Part shown: one piece after another, positions 1,785 to 25,203 of the stretch
Position numbering within the stretch: the first letter of the stretch is position 1
Layout: each line of letters starts with the position of its first letter
From: a virus
Length of the DNA stretch: 27,449 bases
IMG/VR virus record: IMGVR_UViG_3300042301_000914
Span: 1-27,449 of that record
Strand: one strand, 5' to 3'
The notes under the pieces: generated by a model
Told to the model about the DNA's origin: nothing
Database searches by the model: none
What the model saw: the letters and a program-made list of their open reading frames with translations, nothing else
Position numbers and translations under genes: made by a program

Positions 1785-2519
1785 ATGAGAATACGAACCA
1801 TCAAACCTGAGTTCTTCCTTCACGAAGATCTCTTCACTGCTGAAAAGGAAACCAAGATGCCGCTGCGAGTAGCCTTTGCTGGCCTATGGTGTGCGGCAGA
1901 TCGTGAAGGACGTTTCAAATGGGAGCCAAGGCGACTTGGAATCCAGATACTTCCATACGATGAAATTGACTTTTCACGCGTGCTTGACGCGTTAGCCACG
2001 CGTGGTTTCATTGTAAGCTACGCGTCCACTACGGGTAATTTCGGCTTCATTCCTTCTTTCTTGAGGCATCAAGTGATCAACAATCGTGAGAGAATGTCGG
2101 ATTTACCTGATCCGTTGGAATGCACACAAAATGAACACATTGACGCGTCAGCCACGCGTGACCCACGCGACGACCACGCCTGTAAAGAGGAAGGGAAGGG
2201 AAAGGAAGGGAACAAGGAAGGGAAAGGAAAGTTTCCCGTGGAAGGCTTCGATAACTTCTGGTCTGCTTACCCAAGGAAGACAGCCAAGGCTGATGCAGAA
2301 AGAGCATGGGCTAAGATTAGGCCAGATCTTCAGGCAGTTCTCACAGCATTGGAATGGCAGGCTAAGTCTGAAGACTGGACAAGAGACGGTGGGAAATACA
2401 TCCCCTATCCTGCCAGTTACCTCAACTCCAAACGCTATGAGGATGAGAAGCCATCACCCAGGTCTAGCTCAGAGAACTTCATCAAGCCTCGCCAACTCAG
2501 TAAATACGACATCCTATGA
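1785..2519 (+). CDS. Phage replication initiator / helicase loader (lambda O / DnaT-like)
   Basis: A 244-residue protein. Its role is inferred as binding the origin and delivering the DnaB-like helicase encoded next. The N-terminal domain (about 1-105) has the recognisable signature MRIRTIKPEFFLHEDL, then PLRVAFAGLWCAADREGRF and a winged-helix-like block. A low-complexity linker (about 106-150) is Lys/Glu/Gly-rich. The C-terminal domain has FDNFWSAYPRKTAKADAERA (155-174) and the YIPYPASYLNSKRY motif (205-218), typical of DnaT/O-type C-terminal domains that contact helicase. I chose ATG 1785 over TTG 1776 because AAGGA (1771-1775) lies nine bases before the ATG but abuts the TTG. Its 3' end overlaps the helicase start by four bases. 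The linker and the region before it hold phased repeats and a purine tract, a likely origin. Confidence 0.85.
   Translation: MRIRTIKPEFFLHEDLFTAEKETKMPLRVAFAGLWCAADREGRFKWEPRRLGIQILPYDEIDFSRVLDALATRGFIVSYASTTGNFGFIPSFLRHQVINNRERMSDLPDPLECTQNEHIDASATRDPRDDHACKEEGKGKEGNKEGKGKFPVEGFDNFWSAYPRKTAKADAERAWAKIRPDLQAVLTALEWQAKSEDWTRDGGKYIPYPASYLNSKRYEDEKPSPRSSSENFIKPRQLSKYDIL
1976..2181. repeat. 11-bp-phased ACGCGT iterons: candidate replication origin
   Basis: ACGCGT occurs at 1976, 1987, 1998 and 2020 (steps 11, 11, 22) and at 2143 and 2154, followed by variants ACGCGA at 2165 and ACGCCT at 2176 (steps 11, 11, 11). A longer direct repeat, TTGACGCGT(T/C)AGCCACGCGTG, is present in both clusters, 156 bases apart. 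An 11-base step is not a multiple of three, so it cannot come from a repeated peptide; it fits one DNA helical turn and protein sites on one face. The clusters lie within the replication initiator gene, as the lambda origin lies within gene O. Confidence 0.6.
2184..2237. repeat. 48-base purine tract with terminal hairpin beside the iterons
   Basis: Bases 2184-2231 contain only A and G apart from one C at 2213, built from AAGGGAAGGG- and GGAAAGG-like units. The tract ends in GGGAAA(2220-2225)/TTTCCC(2232-2237), a six-pair hairpin with a GGAAAG loop. It encodes the KEEGKGKEGNKEGKGKF linker of the initiator. Next to phased repeats it could be a strand-asymmetric unwinding, triplex-forming or primer-binding part of an origin (inference); it could also be only a flexible linker. 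Confidence 0.5.
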
Positions 2520-3778
2520 ACAGTATCCTGAAGCGAGCTAATGAGCAGTTGCTAATCAGCATCTTCTGCCAGCTTCCCCAAGCTCTGACTAAACATCTAC
2601 ATGCTATCTCCGTTGAGATGTTCTGTCCCACGATCAGACCTGTATTGGTTGAGCTAATCAACACCATTGGCCGAGATGAAACGCCAGAGCTAGTTACCAT
2701 GACTGCCAGCCTACGTCATCAAGGTAAGCTGGATGAGATTGGTGGAGCCGCTACCCTGTCCGAGTATTTCACAGGCTACGTTTCAGGTGAGAATGTAGCT
2801 CTAGCCGTCAGTGAGCTAAGACAACGTCATGAGCTACTTCAACGCATTCAAGCCTACAAAGATGCTGTTACGATGTCAGAGCAGGCTCTAGCGTTACCTC
2901 TGCATGAGATTCCAGCAGCACTCAACGAAGCTGAGAAGGTCATTGAGACTGCCAGCAAGATTCAAGGGAAACCGTTAGCCTCTAAATCCATCGCAGACCT
3001 CACGACGACTCTGATCGAGGACATTGAGAAGCGTATGCAAGCAGGTGGAGCTTTAGTTGGCATCTCGACTGGCTTCCCATGCATCGACAAGAAAACTGGA
3101 GGAATGCAGCCAGGTAGAGTCTGGGTGATAGCTGGAAAGCCTGGTGATGGGAAGTCAGTGCTAATGCAGAACTTCCTAGAGTCTGCTGTATCTCTCGGAA
3201 AGAAGGTTCGCATCTACCCTCTGGAAATGACTCAGCAGGAACAAGCCTACCGACTCCTATGCTCACAAGGTAATCTCGACAACCAATCCGTCTGGAAGGG
3301 GATGATGACCAGAGCAGAGCAACAGGCTTTGATGTTAGCAGTAAAGCAGCTAGCCAAGGCTCAGTGTGACGTCGTGGACGTCAATGGAGCCACTGCCAGT
3401 GAGATCCTAGCTGACATCGAGCAGTCTGATTGTGACGTGGCAATGGTGGATTATCTCCAGCTAATGGAGGATGACGGGAATAAGAAAGGATCTAGAGAAG
3501 AGATCATCGCTAGCATCTCCAGACGATTGAAGAGGACTGCTGTGAAGTGTGGGAAGGTGATCTTGACTGCATCACAGCTTAATGACTTCGGACAGTTGAG
3601 AGAGTCTAGAGCTATTGGCCAGGATGCTGATCACATCATTTACATCGAGAAGGTGGATGAAGATGACACGAAGCGAAACCTGAAGTGTATTAAGAATAGA
3701 ACTGGAGAACGATTCTGGGAGAAGCAATTGGACTTCTTGGGACAGTATTACAAGTTTAGGGAGCAGAGAGAAGACTAA
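2516..3778 (+). CDS. dnaB: Replicative DNA helicase, DnaB-like
   Basis: A 420-residue hexameric 5'-3' helicase of the RecA-like DnaB (SF4) family, expected to unwind the phage fork. It has an N-terminal DnaB-type helical domain (about 1-110), a linker, and an ATPase domain from about 150. Walker A is GKPGDGKS (207-214) and Walker B is DVAMVDYLQLM (307-317). RRLKRTAVKCGKVILTASQL (336-355) covers the DnaB helix and sensor strand. LRESRAIGQDAD (361-372) matches the diagnostic LRES-x-IxQDAD motif. Length is slightly below bacterial DnaB (about 450-470). ATG 2516 overlaps the initiator stop (ATGA), so the two replication proteins are coupled. No primase gene is recognisable nearby. Confidence 0.93.
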   Translation: MNSILKRANEQLLISIFCQLPQALTKHLHAISVEMFCPTIRPVLVELINTIGRDETPELVTMTASLRHQGKLDEIGGAATLSEYFTGYVSGENVALAVSELRQRHELLQRIQAYKDAVTMSEQALALPLHEIPAALNEAEKVIETASKIQGKPLASKSIADLTTTLIEDIEKRMQAGGALVGISTGFPCIDKKTGGMQPGRVWVIAGKPGDGKSVLMQNFLESAVSLGKKVRIYPLEMTQQEQAYRLLCSQGNLDNQSVWKGMMTRAEQQALMLAVKQLAKAQCDVVDVNGATASEILADIEQSDCDVAMVDYLQLMEDDGNKKGSREEIIASISRRLKRTAVKCGKVILTASQLNDFGQLRESRAIGQDADHIIYIEKVDEDDTKRNLKCIKNRTGERFWEKQLDFLGQYYKFREQRED

Positions 3779-7328: not shown

Positions 7329-7811
7329 ATGAATACAGAATCAACTACCGCCGGTACTCTGTTAAGTCCACCGCCTTGTTCGGAATCTTCCGTTCACTTC
7401 TCTAGCGCGTCCGATGACTGGCCTACTCCGCAAGACTTCTTCGACCGGATGAACTCCCTGCATGGCCCGTTGGAACTCGACGTGTGCGCCTCTCCGACGA
7501 ATGCTAAATGCCCGCGCTACTACACACGCGAGGATGATGGGCTGACGCAACCTTGGGAAGGCAAGTGCTGGATGAATCCGCCGTATGGGCGGACAATCGG
7601 CCAGTGGATGAAAAAGGCATACGAGGAAAGCCAACGCGGTGCGCTGGTGGTATGCCTCGTCCCAGCGCGGACTGATACGGCATGGTGGCACGACTACGCG
7701 ACGAAAGGGCAAGTGGCCTTCATCCGTGGACGGCTCAAATTCGGAGGGCATGTGAACTCGGCACCATTCCCCAGCGCGACCGTTGTATTTATGCCGAACA
7801 GATCAGAGTAA
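7329..7811 (+). CDS. dam: Phage DNA N6-adenine methyltransferase (Dam-type)
   Basis: A 160-residue enzyme of the phage 'DNA N-6-adenine-methyltransferase' family (PF05869 type), which transfers a methyl group from S-adenosylmethionine to adenine in DNA. Diagnostic blocks are DDWPTPQDFFDRM (29-41), LELDVCASPTNAKCPRYYT (48-66), the catalytic CWMNPPYGR (80-88, D/N-PP-Y motif with Asn as usual in this family), VPARTDTAWWHDY (111-123), and IRGRLKFGG with APFPSATVVF (132-154). The length is normal for the family. A role in protecting phage DNA from host restriction is inferred. The gene is GC-richer than its neighbours (about 57% in a counted 60-base sample against about 45% elsewhere), with many GCG, CGC and CCG codons, which suggests recent transfer. 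Recognition sequence cannot be read here. Confidence 0.9.
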   Translation: MNTESTTAGTLLSPPPCSESSVHFSSASDDWPTPQDFFDRMNSLHGPLELDVCASPTNAKCPRYYTREDDGLTQPWEGKCWMNPPYGRTIGQWMKKAYEESQRGALVVCLVPARTDTAWWHDYATKGQVAFIRGRLKFGGHVNSAPFPSATVVFMPNRSE

Positions 7812-15937: not shown

Positions 15938-17107
15938 ATGCCAGACTCGACACTCGCCAACTTAACAGCAGCTACTGCTGCAACTGGTGGATTGTTTTAC
16001 GGAACTCAATCTGGAGTCGATAAGAAGTTCACTTCAACCGCTGCTGGAGCTGCTCTAATCGAAGCTGCTGACGTAGCTGCACAGCAGTCTCTACTCTCAG
16101 TCCTTCCTCTTTCTGGTGGCACTCTCACAGGCACGTTGACAGGCACAACCTTTGTGGGTGCTTTAACAGGAACAGCAAGCGGAAACCTTGTCGCAGGTGG
16201 AGCACTCGGAACGCCTTCTAGCGGCACGTTAACTAACTGCACCAACATTCCAGCAGCTAACCTGACTGGAACGATTGACACAGCTAGACTGCCTGCAACG
16301 ATTACAGGTCTAACCAGTGTCACAAGCACGACATTTGTTGGCGCATTGACTGGCACAGCATCGGGCAATCTAGTTGCTGGCGGAGCTTTAGGCACACCAT
16401 CAAGCGGAACGCTGACAAGCTGTACAGGGCTTCCATTAAGCACTGGCGTTACAGGTGACTTACCTCTTGCTAATCTTGCACAGTCTTCAGCGGCATCGAA
16501 ACTGCTTGGACGAGGATCAGAATCAGGTGCAGGCGATTTTCAAGAGATCACGATTGGCTCTGGACTTAGCATGTCAGGCACAACTCTAAGTGCCAGCGGT
16601 GGCGGTGGTGGTGGATCATCTAACGTGTGGATTCCGGCTTCTGCGTGGATACCAAAAACAACGGCAGGTTGCGGTGTTGATTCCGTTGAAACGACGACAA
16701 ACGACCAGAATTTTGACCAGCTTCTTTTTGATGCCGGAACTGATGAATTTGCCGACGCTCTAGTCATCTTACCGAACAATTACAACAATGGCTCAATCAC
16801 GGCTCGGTTTTATTGGACTGCCAGCAGTGGCAGTGGCGATGTCATCTGGGCCATTCAAGGACGCGCATTTGCAAACGACGACGCTCTTGATACCGCAGCC
16901 GGAACAGCGCAGACGGTGACTGACACGCTGATTGCTGCAAATGACATGCACGTTAGCTCGGCAACGTCAGCCTGCACTATTGGGGGAACTCCTGCGGCCA
17001 ATACACCAGTGCAATTAACCATCTACCGCGATGCCAACGCTGGCGGCGATACGCTTGGAGCAGACGCTCGTTTGCTTGGCGTTGAAATCCTTTACACCAC
17101 GGCATAA
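15938..17107 (+). CDS. Tail fibre protein A with codon-scrambled repeats
   Basis: A 389-residue fibre. The N-terminal domain (about 1-55; MPDSTLANLTAATAATGGLF, then YGTQSGVDKKFTSTAAGAAL) is shared with the fibre gene at 18202 and is probably the virion anchor. Residues 70-99 and 131-160 are two copies of a 30-residue Gly/Thr/Ala repeat (starts TTFVGALTGTASGNLVAGGA), typical of phage fibre stalks. A poly-Gly linker (ASGGGGGGSS, about 221-231) joins a C-terminal beta-sandwich (SNVWIPASAWIPKTTAGCGV onward) likely to bind receptor. The start context is TAATTATG, no SD. A lectin-like gene follows at once. Role: host recognition. Confidence 0.8.
   Translation: MPDSTLANLTAATAATGGLFYGTQSGVDKKFTSTAAGAALIEAADVAAQQSLLSVLPLSGGTLTGTLTGTTFVGALTGTASGNLVAGGALGTPSSGTLTNCTNIPAANLTGTIDTARLPATITGLTSVTSTTFVGALTGTASGNLVAGGALGTPSSGTLTSCTGLPLSTGVTGDLPLANLAQSSAASKLLGRGSESGAGDFQEITIGSGLSMSGTTLSASGGGGGGSSNVWIPASAWIPKTTAGCGVDSVETTTNDQNFDQLLFDAGTDEFADALVILPNNYNNGSITARFYWTASSGSGDVIWAIQGRAFANDDALDTAAGTAQTVTDTLIAANDMHVSSATSACTIGGTPAANTPVQLTIYRDANAGGDTLGADARLLGVEILYTTA
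16145..16417. repeat. Two 30-codon repeats with identical protein but different codons
   Basis: Codons at 16145-16234 and 16328-16417 encode 30 identical residues, but only 6 of 30 codons are the same; all 24 others differ synonymously. Repeats of this quality should share DNA sequence if the duplication were recent. The pattern may prevent recombination between copies, or reflect a very old duplication under strong protein-level selection. Seen directly in the sequence; the cause is inference. Confidence 0.85.
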
Positions 17108-18201: not shown

Positions 18202-18897
18202 ATGCCTGACTCAACTTTAAGCAACTTAACAGCAGCAACCACTGGACTAGGTGGTTTGTTCTATGGGACTCAATCAGGCATTGACAAGAAATTCACCTCG
18301 ACGGCAGCAGGTGCAGCATTGCTTGAAGCAGCTAATGCAGCGGCTCAGAGGACAGCGATGGGGGTGCCTTCAACGACTGACCTCGACGCCAAGCTGAATC
18401 TAGCTGGTGGTGCATTGACTGGTGCAATCTCCATGCCTCTGGCTGCTAGTGAAACTCTGGCTAACGCAAGGATCAACGGAATCTGTTTTGGTGCGGATGC
18501 AGCATCTTCAACCAATACAATCTCAAGTTACAATAACAGCTTCCATTTTTATACGGGATCGAGGCTGAGTATGTTGAATACATCTCTTGAATTAGGGCTG
18601 CATCCAGACATCAAGATTGGATGGGCTGCTCATTCTGGTGCTAACGTAGGAAAAGACTTGTATGTTGGAAGAGCGTCTGCTGCTGTTCTACAGCTAGGTG
18701 AGAACGCTGCAACAACTGCCACGAATCAAACGATCAAAGCTCATAACGTCACAGCTGGCACAGGTGCAAACCTGATCCTAAGCGGTGGCACTGGCAGCGT
18801 TTCGAACGGTGTTGTGATTATCTCACGACTTCCTACTTCTAACCCTGGGCCAGGCATCCTTTGGAACAACGACGGAACACCTGCAATCGGAACCTAA
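18202..18897 (+). CDS. Tail fibre protein B sharing the anchor domain of fibre A
   Basis: A 231-residue protein. The first 40 residues align without gaps with fibre A (35 identical), but 23 of the 35 matching codons are different synonyms. After this anchor the sequence is unrelated: LNLAGGALTGAISMPLAASE, then a beta-helix-like body and the end SNGVVIISRLPTSN-x-GPGILWNNDGT. The last motif resembles the 'lwnddG' end of many phage fibre and structural tips. Start context CCTCCTAAAATATG, without SD. Two fibre types on one anchor suggest interchangeable receptor-binding units. Confidence 0.75.
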   Translation: MPDSTLSNLTAATTGLGGLFYGTQSGIDKKFTSTAAGAALLEAANAAAQRTAMGVPSTTDLDAKLNLAGGALTGAISMPLAASETLANARINGICFGADAASSTNTISSYNNSFHFYTGSRLSMLNTSLELGLHPDIKIGWAAHSGANVGKDLYVGRASAAVLQLGENAATTATNQTIKAHNVTAGTGANLILSGGTGSVSNGVVIISRLPTSNPGPGILWNNDGTPAIGT

Positions 18898-21982: not shown

Positions 21983-23293
21983 ATGCCTACTCTTGCTTCT
22001 ACCCAATCTTTCACTGACGGCAATGTTCTGAGTGCTACTGCACTGACTAACCATGTTATTGATGCAACGCCACTGGCAACATTCATCTCTGGTCAAACGG
22101 CTGTATCCGCTCCAGTTCCTGCCGATGAGTTCCTCATTGCCACATCTGGTTCTGCATCAGCTAAGAAGGTCAGTCTTTCAACGCTAGCCGCTAACCTTCC
22201 AACTGGCACAACTGCCGTAGATTTAGCTGTAACAGGTGCAACGACATTAACCGGAGTATTAACGGCAAACGGAAATACGATTATCGGCAACGCTGCCACT
22301 GACACTCTGACGGTCAACGCAGCTTCTAGCTTTGGAGGTGACACGACTCTCGGAGGCTCTGCTGTAACAAGTGCAACATGGGCACGATCCACAACCACGC
22401 TGACTGTCACAAAGACTGCCCACGGCCTAACAACTGGCAATTCTCGTTACTTTGTATTCACAGGCACAAGTTCAACGCCAGTGACTAGCAGCGTGCTCAA
22501 TGGCACTTATACCGTGACTGTCACATCTGTTGACGTGTTCACCATCACCGTTGCAGATGCAGGTGACGTGGTTGGAACTGTCACTTGGTATGAAAGGACG
22601 CTTACTCTGAGTTCTACCATCACTGGGCCGCTACAGGGTAACATTCCCGTAAATGTTGCCAGTGTTGAACTAGGCACAGGCGATGAGTTCTTGGTAAAAG
22701 ACGTTTCAGACTCAAACCGAGTCAAAACAACGACTGGCGGTTTGTTTAAAGCCTGGGCCAATATCAACGCCAACTTTACGTCAATCAATGGTTCTGTGCT
22801 TCGTTCTGCAAACACAGCGACCATCACAAAGACAGATCACAACCTTCGTGTTGGTGACGTTATTTACATCACCGGAGGCTCTGGAAGTATTGCAACCAGT
22901 TGGTATGCTGTTTTCAGTGTCCCTAGTTCCTCAACCTTTACCGTCATTACAGCAGCCAGTGGCACCATTTCGACGCCTGCGGGTGTCACTTGGTATCAGC
23001 ACACCATTTTAGCTGGCAACAATGTTTATGCGGCCTATGGCAAGAACACGGAAAGAGTGATTCACGTGAGTTTTATCAATAAACCACCGTCAGTGGATTC
23101 ATACATTGTTAACCTCGCTGCTGCTAAGTTTACACTGGGTAACAACTGTTTACCTCCCCAAATTAACAATATTGATGATAAGTTTCCATCTGACATCATC
23201 AAGACCGTCAATGGTTTTGGCTTTGTCAGTTATACTACAACTGGCACTGTCACAGCCACAACTGGCGAATATCACATCCAAGCAATTTGGTAA
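21983..23293 (+). CDS. Tail fibre protein C with two HGL/HNL-type beta domains
   Basis: A 436-residue protein beginning in the TAAAATATG context with MPTLASTQSFTDGNVLSATA, and a typical fibre attachment linker (FLIATSGSASAKKVSLSTLA, later GATTLTGVLTANGNTIIGNA). Residues about 131-205 (TLTVTKTAHGLTTGNSRYFV, LNGTYTVTVTSVDVFTITVA) and 273-340 (ATITKTDHNLRVGDVIYITG, SSSTFTVITAASG) are two copies of a 70-residue beta domain, also present in the 20033 protein. The C-terminus ends in an immunoglobulin-like or jelly-roll-like domain. Likely receptor-binding fibre. Confidence 0.75.
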   Translation: MPTLASTQSFTDGNVLSATALTNHVIDATPLATFISGQTAVSAPVPADEFLIATSGSASAKKVSLSTLAANLPTGTTAVDLAVTGATTLTGVLTANGNTIIGNAATDTLTVNAASSFGGDTTLGGSAVTSATWARSTTTLTVTKTAHGLTTGNSRYFVFTGTSSTPVTSSVLNGTYTVTVTSVDVFTITVADAGDVVGTVTWYERTLTLSSTITGPLQGNIPVNVASVELGTGDEFLVKDVSDSNRVKTTTGGLFKAWANINANFTSINGSVLRSANTATITKTDHNLRVGDVIYITGGSGSIATSWYAVFSVPSSSTFTVITAASGTISTPAGVTWYQHTILAGNNVYAAYGKNTERVIHVSFINKPPSVDSYIVNLAAAKFTLGNNCLPPQINNIDDKFPSDIIKTVNGFGFVSYTTTGTVTATTGEYHIQAIW

Positions 23294-23631: not shown

Positions 23632-24400
23632 AGCACCACGACCAACTAGCTACGAGAAAATGATGACGGACAGCTTAGCCGCTCAGGGCAAGATTGCACC
23701 TAAGCTGCTACGGGCTGAACAGAGGTATCAACCTCTTTATACTGCGTTAAACATCTCTCAGTTAGGACAAGCCACTCAAGGATTGCAAGGTGTTTACAAC
23801 CAAGGATTGCCAGGTGCCATTGATTTTCAGAATCAACTCACTGAAGCCGATATGGCACAGCAGGCAAAATACCTGCCTCAATTTGTGCAGCAGTATCGAG
23901 AAGGCGCTGGCTCTGCTAACCTGCTCTCACAACTCCAAACTCAAGCCGAGGAAGGTCTAGCCGCTGGTTCTAGCTTAACACCGGAACAGCAGAGAGTTGC
24001 ACAGCAACAAGCTAGGGCTGCTTATGCTGCTAGAGGCATGGGCACAGGCAACCGTGCTATTGGTGCCGAGATCATGAGCCAGTATGGAATGGGCGAAGCT
24101 CTACAACGCCAACGTCAACAGTTCGCTGGTAATGTGGCAGGACAGCTAGAGCAATCTGGTGTCCCTCAATACTACAACACGACCTATCAACCAGTCGGTC
24201 AGACTCTTTCTGGTCTAGTCAGCGGTTCATCTGGCCTAATGGCAGGGAGACAGTTCCAGCCTGAATCGCAGATGTCTTCTGACATTTACTCACAGAACGC
24301 TCAGAATAAGTTCACCGCTGGCGCTGCTAGTGATGCTAATAGATCGTCAATGATTGGTGCAGGTGCAAGTGTTGCCGTGACTGGTGCAATCCTTATCTAA
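23615..24400 (+). CDS. Internal virion protein (glutamine-rich)
   Basis: A 261-residue protein with many Gln, Ala and Gly residues: EKMMTDSLAAQGKIAPKLLR, then QATQGLQGVYNQGLPGAIDF, then LTPEQQRVAQQQARAAYAAR and a C-terminal hydrophobic segment (SSMIGAGASVAVTGAILI). This composition and place, after the tail genes, matches podovirus internal (ejection) proteins that help pass DNA through the cell envelope. The start lies within the 3' end of the previous gene. No family is certain. Confidence 0.6.
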   Translation: MGSSAEAPRPTSYEKMMTDSLAAQGKIAPKLLRAEQRYQPLYTALNISQLGQATQGLQGVYNQGLPGAIDFQNQLTEADMAQQAKYLPQFVQQYREGAGSANLLSQLQTQAEEGLAAGSSLTPEQQRVAQQQARAAYAARGMGTGNRAIGAEIMSQYGMGEALQRQRQQFAGNVAGQLEQSGVPQYYNTTYQPVGQTLSGLVSGSSGLMAGRQFQPESQMSSDIYSQNAQNKFTAGAASDANRSSMIGAGASVAVTGAILI

Positions 24401-25203
24401 TGACTAAACTCGACAACACAAAGAAGATTATTGCCAACGGCATCAAAGCCTTTCCCAAGGGAATGGTTTGTTGGAGTGGTGGCAAGGATTCGATGGTGCT
24501 CCTTCACATCATGAAAAGCATGGGCTTAAACATGCCTATCGTCTTCTTTCGTGAACCATGGCAACCTAGGAAGTATGTCTTCGCAGATGACCTGATCAAA
24601 CGGTGGAACTTGCTGGTTTACACTTGGCACCCACAAGAGTCTGCATTCCAGCAGACAGGTGATGAGTTTGAGGTGCAAAACGTCTATCAGGTCAACTCAA
24701 CCATTCTAACGTGTCCGACGGGCATTGTGGAGCCAGTGCAAGGCTGCTCGTTTACTTGCTCTTTAGACATACTTAAAAGGCCTAAGCAGTTGATGCTTGA
24801 GGTGCCTCAGTTTGATGCCTTGTGGATAGGTCACAAAGGCTGTGATTCAGATCCAATTCTAGGTGGTGACGCTGGCACTCGTATTGAATCCAGAGTTCTC
24901 TGGAGTCAGTCGAATATGATGTTCCCTCTGCGTGATTGGACTCATGATGATATCTGGGACTACATCGAACGCTATGATGTCCCTTACGATTCAGATCGAT
25001 ACGAGAAAGCTGACGGCAAGTGGCGTGAGAAAGCAGACAAGGCTCACAATGTCGATTACGTCCATGCTTGCACACGTTGCGTGGATCGTAGAGCTAACGC
25101 TCCTAAGTTCGTGCATTGTCCCAAGCTGGACATGACGATTGAGAACATTTCAGGACAGGTGCCATGGGCATCACAGGAAAAAGCAACCTACATGAAAGAC
25201 TAA
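24400..25203 (+). CDS. PAPS-reductase-like protein (PP-loop) embedded in virion genes
   Basis: A 267-residue protein of the PAPS reductase/CysH-like superfamily with a PP-loop pyrophosphatase motif CWSGGKDSMVLLHIM (24-38, SGGKDS at 26-31). Downstream blocks are CSLDILKRPKQLM (120-132), IGHKGCDSDPILG (143-155, near the phosphosulfate/AMP contact) and FPLRDWTHDDIWDYIERYDV (175-194), which match CysH-type proteins. The CysH C-terminal ECGLH motif is missing; a C-terminal CTRC pair (Cys224, Cys227) and HCP (Cys240) suggest metal or Fe-S binding instead. The start shares a base with the previous stop. Substrate is not predictable; sulfur activation, tRNA/DNA modification or phage protein chemistry are possible. 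Confidence 0.8.
   Translation: MTKLDNTKKIIANGIKAFPKGMVCWSGGKDSMVLLHIMKSMGLNMPIVFFREPWQPRKYVFADDLIKRWNLLVYTWHPQESAFQQTGDEFEVQNVYQVNSTILTCPTGIVEPVQGCSFTCSLDILKRPKQLMLEVPQFDALWIGHKGCDSDPILGGDAGTRIESRVLWSQSNMMFPLRDWTHDDIWDYIERYDVPYDSDRYEKADGKWREKADKAHNVDYVHACTRCVDRRANAPKFVHCPKLDMTIENISGQVPWASQEKATYMKD

Follow-up and report, generated by a model that had tools for sequence, protein, structure and literature searches.

The iterons of phage lambda are approximately 18 bp long, and initiators of the RepA_N type bind direct repeats through a winged-helix N-terminal domain. In Stx/lambdoid phages, ori lambda lies in the middle of gene O, where repeats bound by the initiator are followed by an unwinding tract, and additional iterons, as found in Stx phages, lengthen the initiator protein (PMC7466680). 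The locus analyzed here has the same layout, with repeats in the middle of an initiator gene, a tract behind them and a helicase-related gene next, and here too extra repeats add amino acids to the initiator. However, the parts differ. While the lambda repeats are flanked by an AT-rich tract, the tract at this locus is made of purines and is not AT-rich. Unlike the lambda iterons, the repeats are built on a step of 11 bp that contains a 6-bp palindrome, and they form two arrays. The gene that follows encodes a DnaB-like helicase, whereas in lambda it is a loader gene of the P type. A Pfam search with 17 members of the initiator family (E ≤ 1) gave no match to a phage O family. Judged from its layout, the locus would work like the lambda arrangement, and by sequence it is outside the lambda O family. 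Searches of the openly searchable literature turned up no account of this iteron class, which may still have been mentioned earlier in silico.

Results

The initiator gene and its surroundings

The window, i.e., the whole stretch of DNA that was analyzed, is a virus record of 27,449 bases, which may be a fragment. The protein encoded at 1785-2519 (Table 1) matches replication initiation families of PHROGs (best E 2.1e-40), and searches of Pfam and NCBIfam with it matched no family. The product of the adjoining gene at 2516-3778 matches DnaB_C in Pfam (E 1.5e-40) and phrog_19 (E 1.9e-57), an order of genes also seen in the DnaB-linked phage replication module. The preliminary description had called the first gene a replication initiator, and the PHROGs match bears this out.

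The full-length structure model of the initiator was poor (pLDDT 46), and a model of the N-domain alone (residues 1-112) was used in its place. This AlphaFold2 model (mean pLDDT 90) contains helices followed by a beta hairpin, and the domain models as a winged helix. Foldseek returned weak matches to the initiator N-domains 4pt7, 4pql and 5kbj (E 0.009-0.03), which we take to be RepA (RepA_N) of plasmid pSK1; these were among the top fold matches in the PDB, with a best E of 0.009 and a TM-score of only approximately 0.47. A search of the window initiator against solved structures by sequence gave no match.

Elsewhere in the window, the ORFs at 15938-17107 and 18202-18897 have almost the same N-terminal stretch (MPDSTL.NLTAAT...GGLFYGTQSG.DKKFTSTAAGAAL.EAA), which probably reflects duplication of a virion attachment domain. 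A PAPS-reductase-like gene (24400-25203; Pfam E 1.3e-12) is found among the late genes, and 7329-7811 encodes a Dam-type adenine methyltransferase (Pfam E 7.7e-29). The ACGCGT arrays of the window contain no GATC.

Table 1. Coordinates of the replication locus in the window.
Feature	Position	Strand	Remarks
Replication initiator gene	1785..2519	+	244 aa; ATG at 1785, AAGGA ahead of ATG
N-terminal winged-helix domain (predicted)	1785..2120	+	AlphaFold2 model
Array 1	1976..2025	.	ACGCGT at 1976, 1987, 1998, 2020
HQVINNRE motif codons	2067..2090	+	End of N-domain; marks clade with ACGCGT arrays
Array 2 (likely core)	2143..2181	.	ACGCGT at 2143, 2154; ACGCGA at 2165; ACGCCT at 2176
Polypurine tract	2184..2231	+	Candidate unwinding element, directly 3' of array 2
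DnaB-like replicative helicase gene	2516..3778	+	Overlaps initiator stop

Phased ACGCGT arrays

The preliminary description reported ACGC(G/C) repeats in two clusters within the initiator gene, and all of its positions were found: ACGCG at the four sites of array 1 and at the first three of array 2 (2143, 2154 and 2165), and ACGCC at the fourth (2176). The palindrome ACGCGT itself occurs six times in the whole window, each time within 1785-2519. Steps are 11, 11 and 22 bp in array 1 and 11, 11 and 11 bp in array 2. The exact 11-base steps described earlier thus hold as multiples of 11, with 2020 sitting two steps from 1998. The direct repeat common to both clusters, TTGACGCGT(T/C)AGCCACGCGTG, is likewise present (1984-2004 and 2140-2160), but it is 21 letters long with one mismatch and not 20 bases. 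Array 1 lies within codons for residues 63-72, a predicted helix, and for the beginning of the wing, and array 2 in the interdomain linker between the N- and C-domains.

The combination ACGCGT-N5-ACGCGT is present three times in the window and in none of 100 dinucleotide shuffles. When the same peptide was recoded synonymously with the codon usage of the phage, the maximum in 200,000 trials was five ACGCGT, compared to six observed, and two ACGCGT pairs at 11 bp, compared to three observed. The Ala codon used in the motif, GCG, is the one that the phage uses least (51/552). The phased ACGCGT repeats are real and far above chance.

The polypurine tract

The tract that follows array 2, missed in the preliminary description, consists of a pure purine run of 29 nt (2184-2212), which is followed by 2214-2231. 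Nowhere else in the window is there a run of at least 20 bases that are all purines or all pyrimidines. For the window peptide alone, the tract length is mildly unusual (P = 0.045). In relatives, 278/281 of the Gly codons after array 2 are GGA or GGG, vs 125/370 in other genes of the window, and comparison of the sequences indicates that the purine composition of the tract is clearly selected across relatives. Self-identity within the tract peaks at a lag of 5 nt in both subfamilies of the initiator described below, and 5 nt does not correspond to a period of coding sequence. An inverted repeat, GGGAAAGGAAAGTTTCCC, is found at 2220-2237, at the 3' end of the tract.

No AT-rich unwinding element was found at the arrays; the purine tract is there instead, with a stability near the genome mean, and the stability profile of the duplex has no melting dip across the arrays. 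In this part of the window, stability over 50 bp is lowest in the stretch that starts at 1704, ahead of the initiator gene; in relatives, the region around the start of the gene is only mildly unstable. Within the window, 1704-1754 is among the least stable 50-bp stretches (top 0.4%).

Conservation in close relatives

The close set comprised 80 viral loci retrieved with peptide patterns located outside array 1, of which 59 sequences with distinct N-domain DNA were kept, window included. Across these, the gene (45 kb in total) contains 375 copies of ACGCGT, vs 5 in the 295 kb of flanking sequence. At the gene positions 192, 203 and 214 of array 1, 58, 58 and 59 of the 59 carry ACGCGT, and the motif codons TCA, GAC, GCG, ACG and CGT are each the sole codon used for their conserved residue. 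The same applies to the array 2 residues A121, T124, R125 and R128, with a single codon in 59/59. Mean normalized codon entropy is 0.05 at motif codons vs 0.58 at other conserved residues, which vary synonymously, and this contrast is conservative since the comparison set still holds codons of the linker and the tract. The repeats are therefore kept as DNA over synonymous variation, beyond what the peptide needs. The avoidance of ACGCGT outside the gene (5 seen vs 25 expected from a Markov estimate) is real, but was set aside as evidence of titration because other palindromes are avoided too.

Helical phase in the second subfamily and distant relatives

A second subfamily was fetched with the patterns TIKPEFF and HQVINN, both outside the linker, and all of its 72 distinct members have ACGCGT within the gene. 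Their short steps are 11 bp (99 pairs) or 10 bp (35 pairs), with few others, which means that the reading frame of the repeat changes while the helical face is held. In total, the phages and prophages related to the window that keep the sites and the purine tract as DNA number considerably more than 100. In one contig (L158), seven copies of ACGCGT follow each other in steps alternating between 11 and 10 bp, with a mean of 10.5. Among the sequence data, this 10/11-bp alternation is the strongest evidence for binding to one face of the helix. The most common distance in this subfamily between the first base of the last ACGCGT and the beginning of the tract is 12 nt. A Rayleigh period fit gave approximately 11.85 for the subfamily and was replaced by the step counts, because the period is blurred by sites that lie past the purine tract.

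In distant relatives, array 2 and the purine tract are kept, whereas array 1 has in many cases been lost or has degenerated. This suggests that array 2 and the tract are the likely core, and that array 1 is an auxiliary part found in the close family. The preliminary description had treated the two clusters as equals, but it is the linker cluster that survives in distant relatives. It had also named loss of the repeats from a conserved peptide as evidence against an origin. Such a loss was seen once, in L090, and in array 1 only: the array 1 peptide is kept, and two of three ACGCGT have been lost by synonymous change. The C-terminal domains of relatives differ widely past the linker, while their N-domains are 70-90% alike. 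In L176, an HNH-endonuclease-like insertion (motif CVRCGSTDDL) is found between the N-domain and the linker; the ACGCGT array is displaced to gene positions 620-651, and its 10- and 21-bp steps remain.

Specificity of the array signature

Viral contigs were also scanned from the DNA side for runs of three ACGCGT with steps of 10-11 bp, which gave at least 80 loci. Among the 80 matches listed, the triple array lies wholly inside the window-type initiator family in 70 and in other phage initiators in four more (L209, L236, L250 and L269), i.e., in a phage initiator gene in 74/80. Of the remaining listed loci, L249 has an additional array that lies outside its initiator. In L244 and L255 the array is in an unassigned gene, and in L206, L218 and L228 it is in no recognized initiator. 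In three whole bacterial genomes (4.8-7.4 Mb), the triple array is confined to a single contig per genome, where it is found at one place or at two neighboring ones, and its steps match those of prophage initiator genes in the same genomes. Prophages with arrays occur in Pseudomonadota, Acidobacteriota and Planctomycetota.

The four other initiators are of the phrog_9474 type (L209, L236 and L269) and the DUF1376 type (L250), and their phased ACGCGT is found in linker DNA. A tract of roughly 5-bp repeats follows the arrays in L250/L336 and L236/L330. Among DUF1376 genes in general, 10/11 are without ACGCGT and one has two at 24 bp, which makes L250 an exception. The presence of phased ACGCGT in other initiator families means that the binder need not be an N-domain of the window type.

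Sister clades with other iterons

Phased ACGCGT is found in 139/145 initiators with HQx(I/V)NN, in 28/30 with other HQx(I/V)N and in 0/95 with HQxPH, with part of the HQxxN sample fetched with HQVINN as search peptide. The HQxPH sister initiators are homologous, with HQxPH replacing HQxIN, and have CTGATT repeats in 80/95. JBD44-type Pseudomonas phage initiators resemble the window in having a homologous N-domain and repeats in linker-coding DNA, but their core is CTGATT(C) at spacings of 7, 8 and 15 bp, unlike the ACGCGT steps of the window. They also differ from the window family in tract and phase, with a purine tract in 1/95 and phased ACGCGT in 0/95. In a small HQR(I/F)xG(K/S)E group, GGGGAA-type repeats at 11 bp were read by eye together with the same purine tract, and three HQRVDKPN contigs, also read by eye, have 11-bp TCCAAG/CTTGGA repeats with the tract again present. 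In the linker of L416, L418 and L419, 11-bp-phased TCCAAGA and its reverse complement TCTTGGA stand ahead of the same tract.

The iteron core follows the N-domain tree with the minimum of three changes, a pattern that fits co-inheritance of initiator and site. With only three changes on the tree, the match between HQxxN and iteron is at clade level and not independent proof of contact residues.

Discussion

Collectively, our results point to 1976-2231 as a replication origin within the initiator gene, arranged as in lambda and probably bound by the initiator on one face of the helix, and we assign this reading a probability of approximately 0.86. The candidate origin proposed at this place in the preliminary description is supported by the identity of the initiator, by conservation at the DNA level and by the phase of the sites. 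The winged-helix N-domain would bind each ACGCGT, with one initiator unit per helical turn along a single face of the linker array. The bound complex might open or grip the adjacent purine tract, and the C-domain may then recruit the neighboring DnaB-like helicase. A cumulative GC skew minimum near 2000-2230, suggested earlier as a check, was not seen: the skew reaches its global minimum at 23279, and only a weak local one falls at 1837. GC skew is uninformative here because the record is linear and its main genes are on one strand.

The arrays might instead be an operator, through which the initiator or a repressor controls its own transcription or helicase expression, while replication starts elsewhere. 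The sites are palindromic like many operators and lie within an early operon, and binding at an origin and autoregulation may coexist. However, the linker array is coupled to a purine tract immediately 3' of it, conserved and with a period of 5 nt, for which an operator has no need; the array is in the middle of the gene (gene positions ~310-420) and not at a promoter; and the layout matches ori lambda (PMC7466680). We therefore regard a pure operator as unlikely. That a host protein binds the sites in place of the phage initiator is very unlikely, even though the phrog_9474-type and DUF1376-type initiators show that phased ACGCGT is not confined to one initiator family. The sites are kept across prophages of three bacterial phyla, sister initiators from other Pseudomonadota have repeats of other types, and the core tracks the N-domain clade of the initiator.

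The divergence of C-terminal domains after the linker, next to N-domains that are much alike, is also what would be expected if linker DNA were kept as a recombination joint for domain swaps, with no origin involved. Such a joint needs homology but not helical phase, and 10/11 steps prevail though copy number varies; array 1, moreover, is inside the N-domain and away from the joint. This makes the explanation highly improbable. A linker rich in Lys, Glu and Gly is expected to give some purine run, as the P value for the tract alone indicates, and the arrays could in principle be a by-product of such a low-complexity linker and codon bias. For the arrays, this reading is refuted by the counts in relatives and by the recoding, in which 0/200,000 trials reached the observed number, and the use of the rarest Ala codon argues in the same direction.

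Beyond the window, the chances are about even that the locus represents a widespread class of origins, in which ACGCGT every 10-11 bp is followed by a 5-nt-periodic purine tract, and in which related initiators read different cores (ACGCGT; GGGGAA type; TCCAAG/CTTGGA), with pitch and location unchanged. In that case, both the origin and its specificity would be readable from the initiator gene alone, and residues near HQxxNxxE would be candidate specificity determinants. The sister clades with other cores make the specificity between initiator and iteron directly testable. The locus would also be a natural case of one DNA stretch that carries both a protein code and a protein-binding code. For most environmental phages the origin is unknown, whereas an origin of the window type may be recognized from sequence with high specificity, so that origins can be predicted for numerous uncultured phages as well as for prophages from several phyla.
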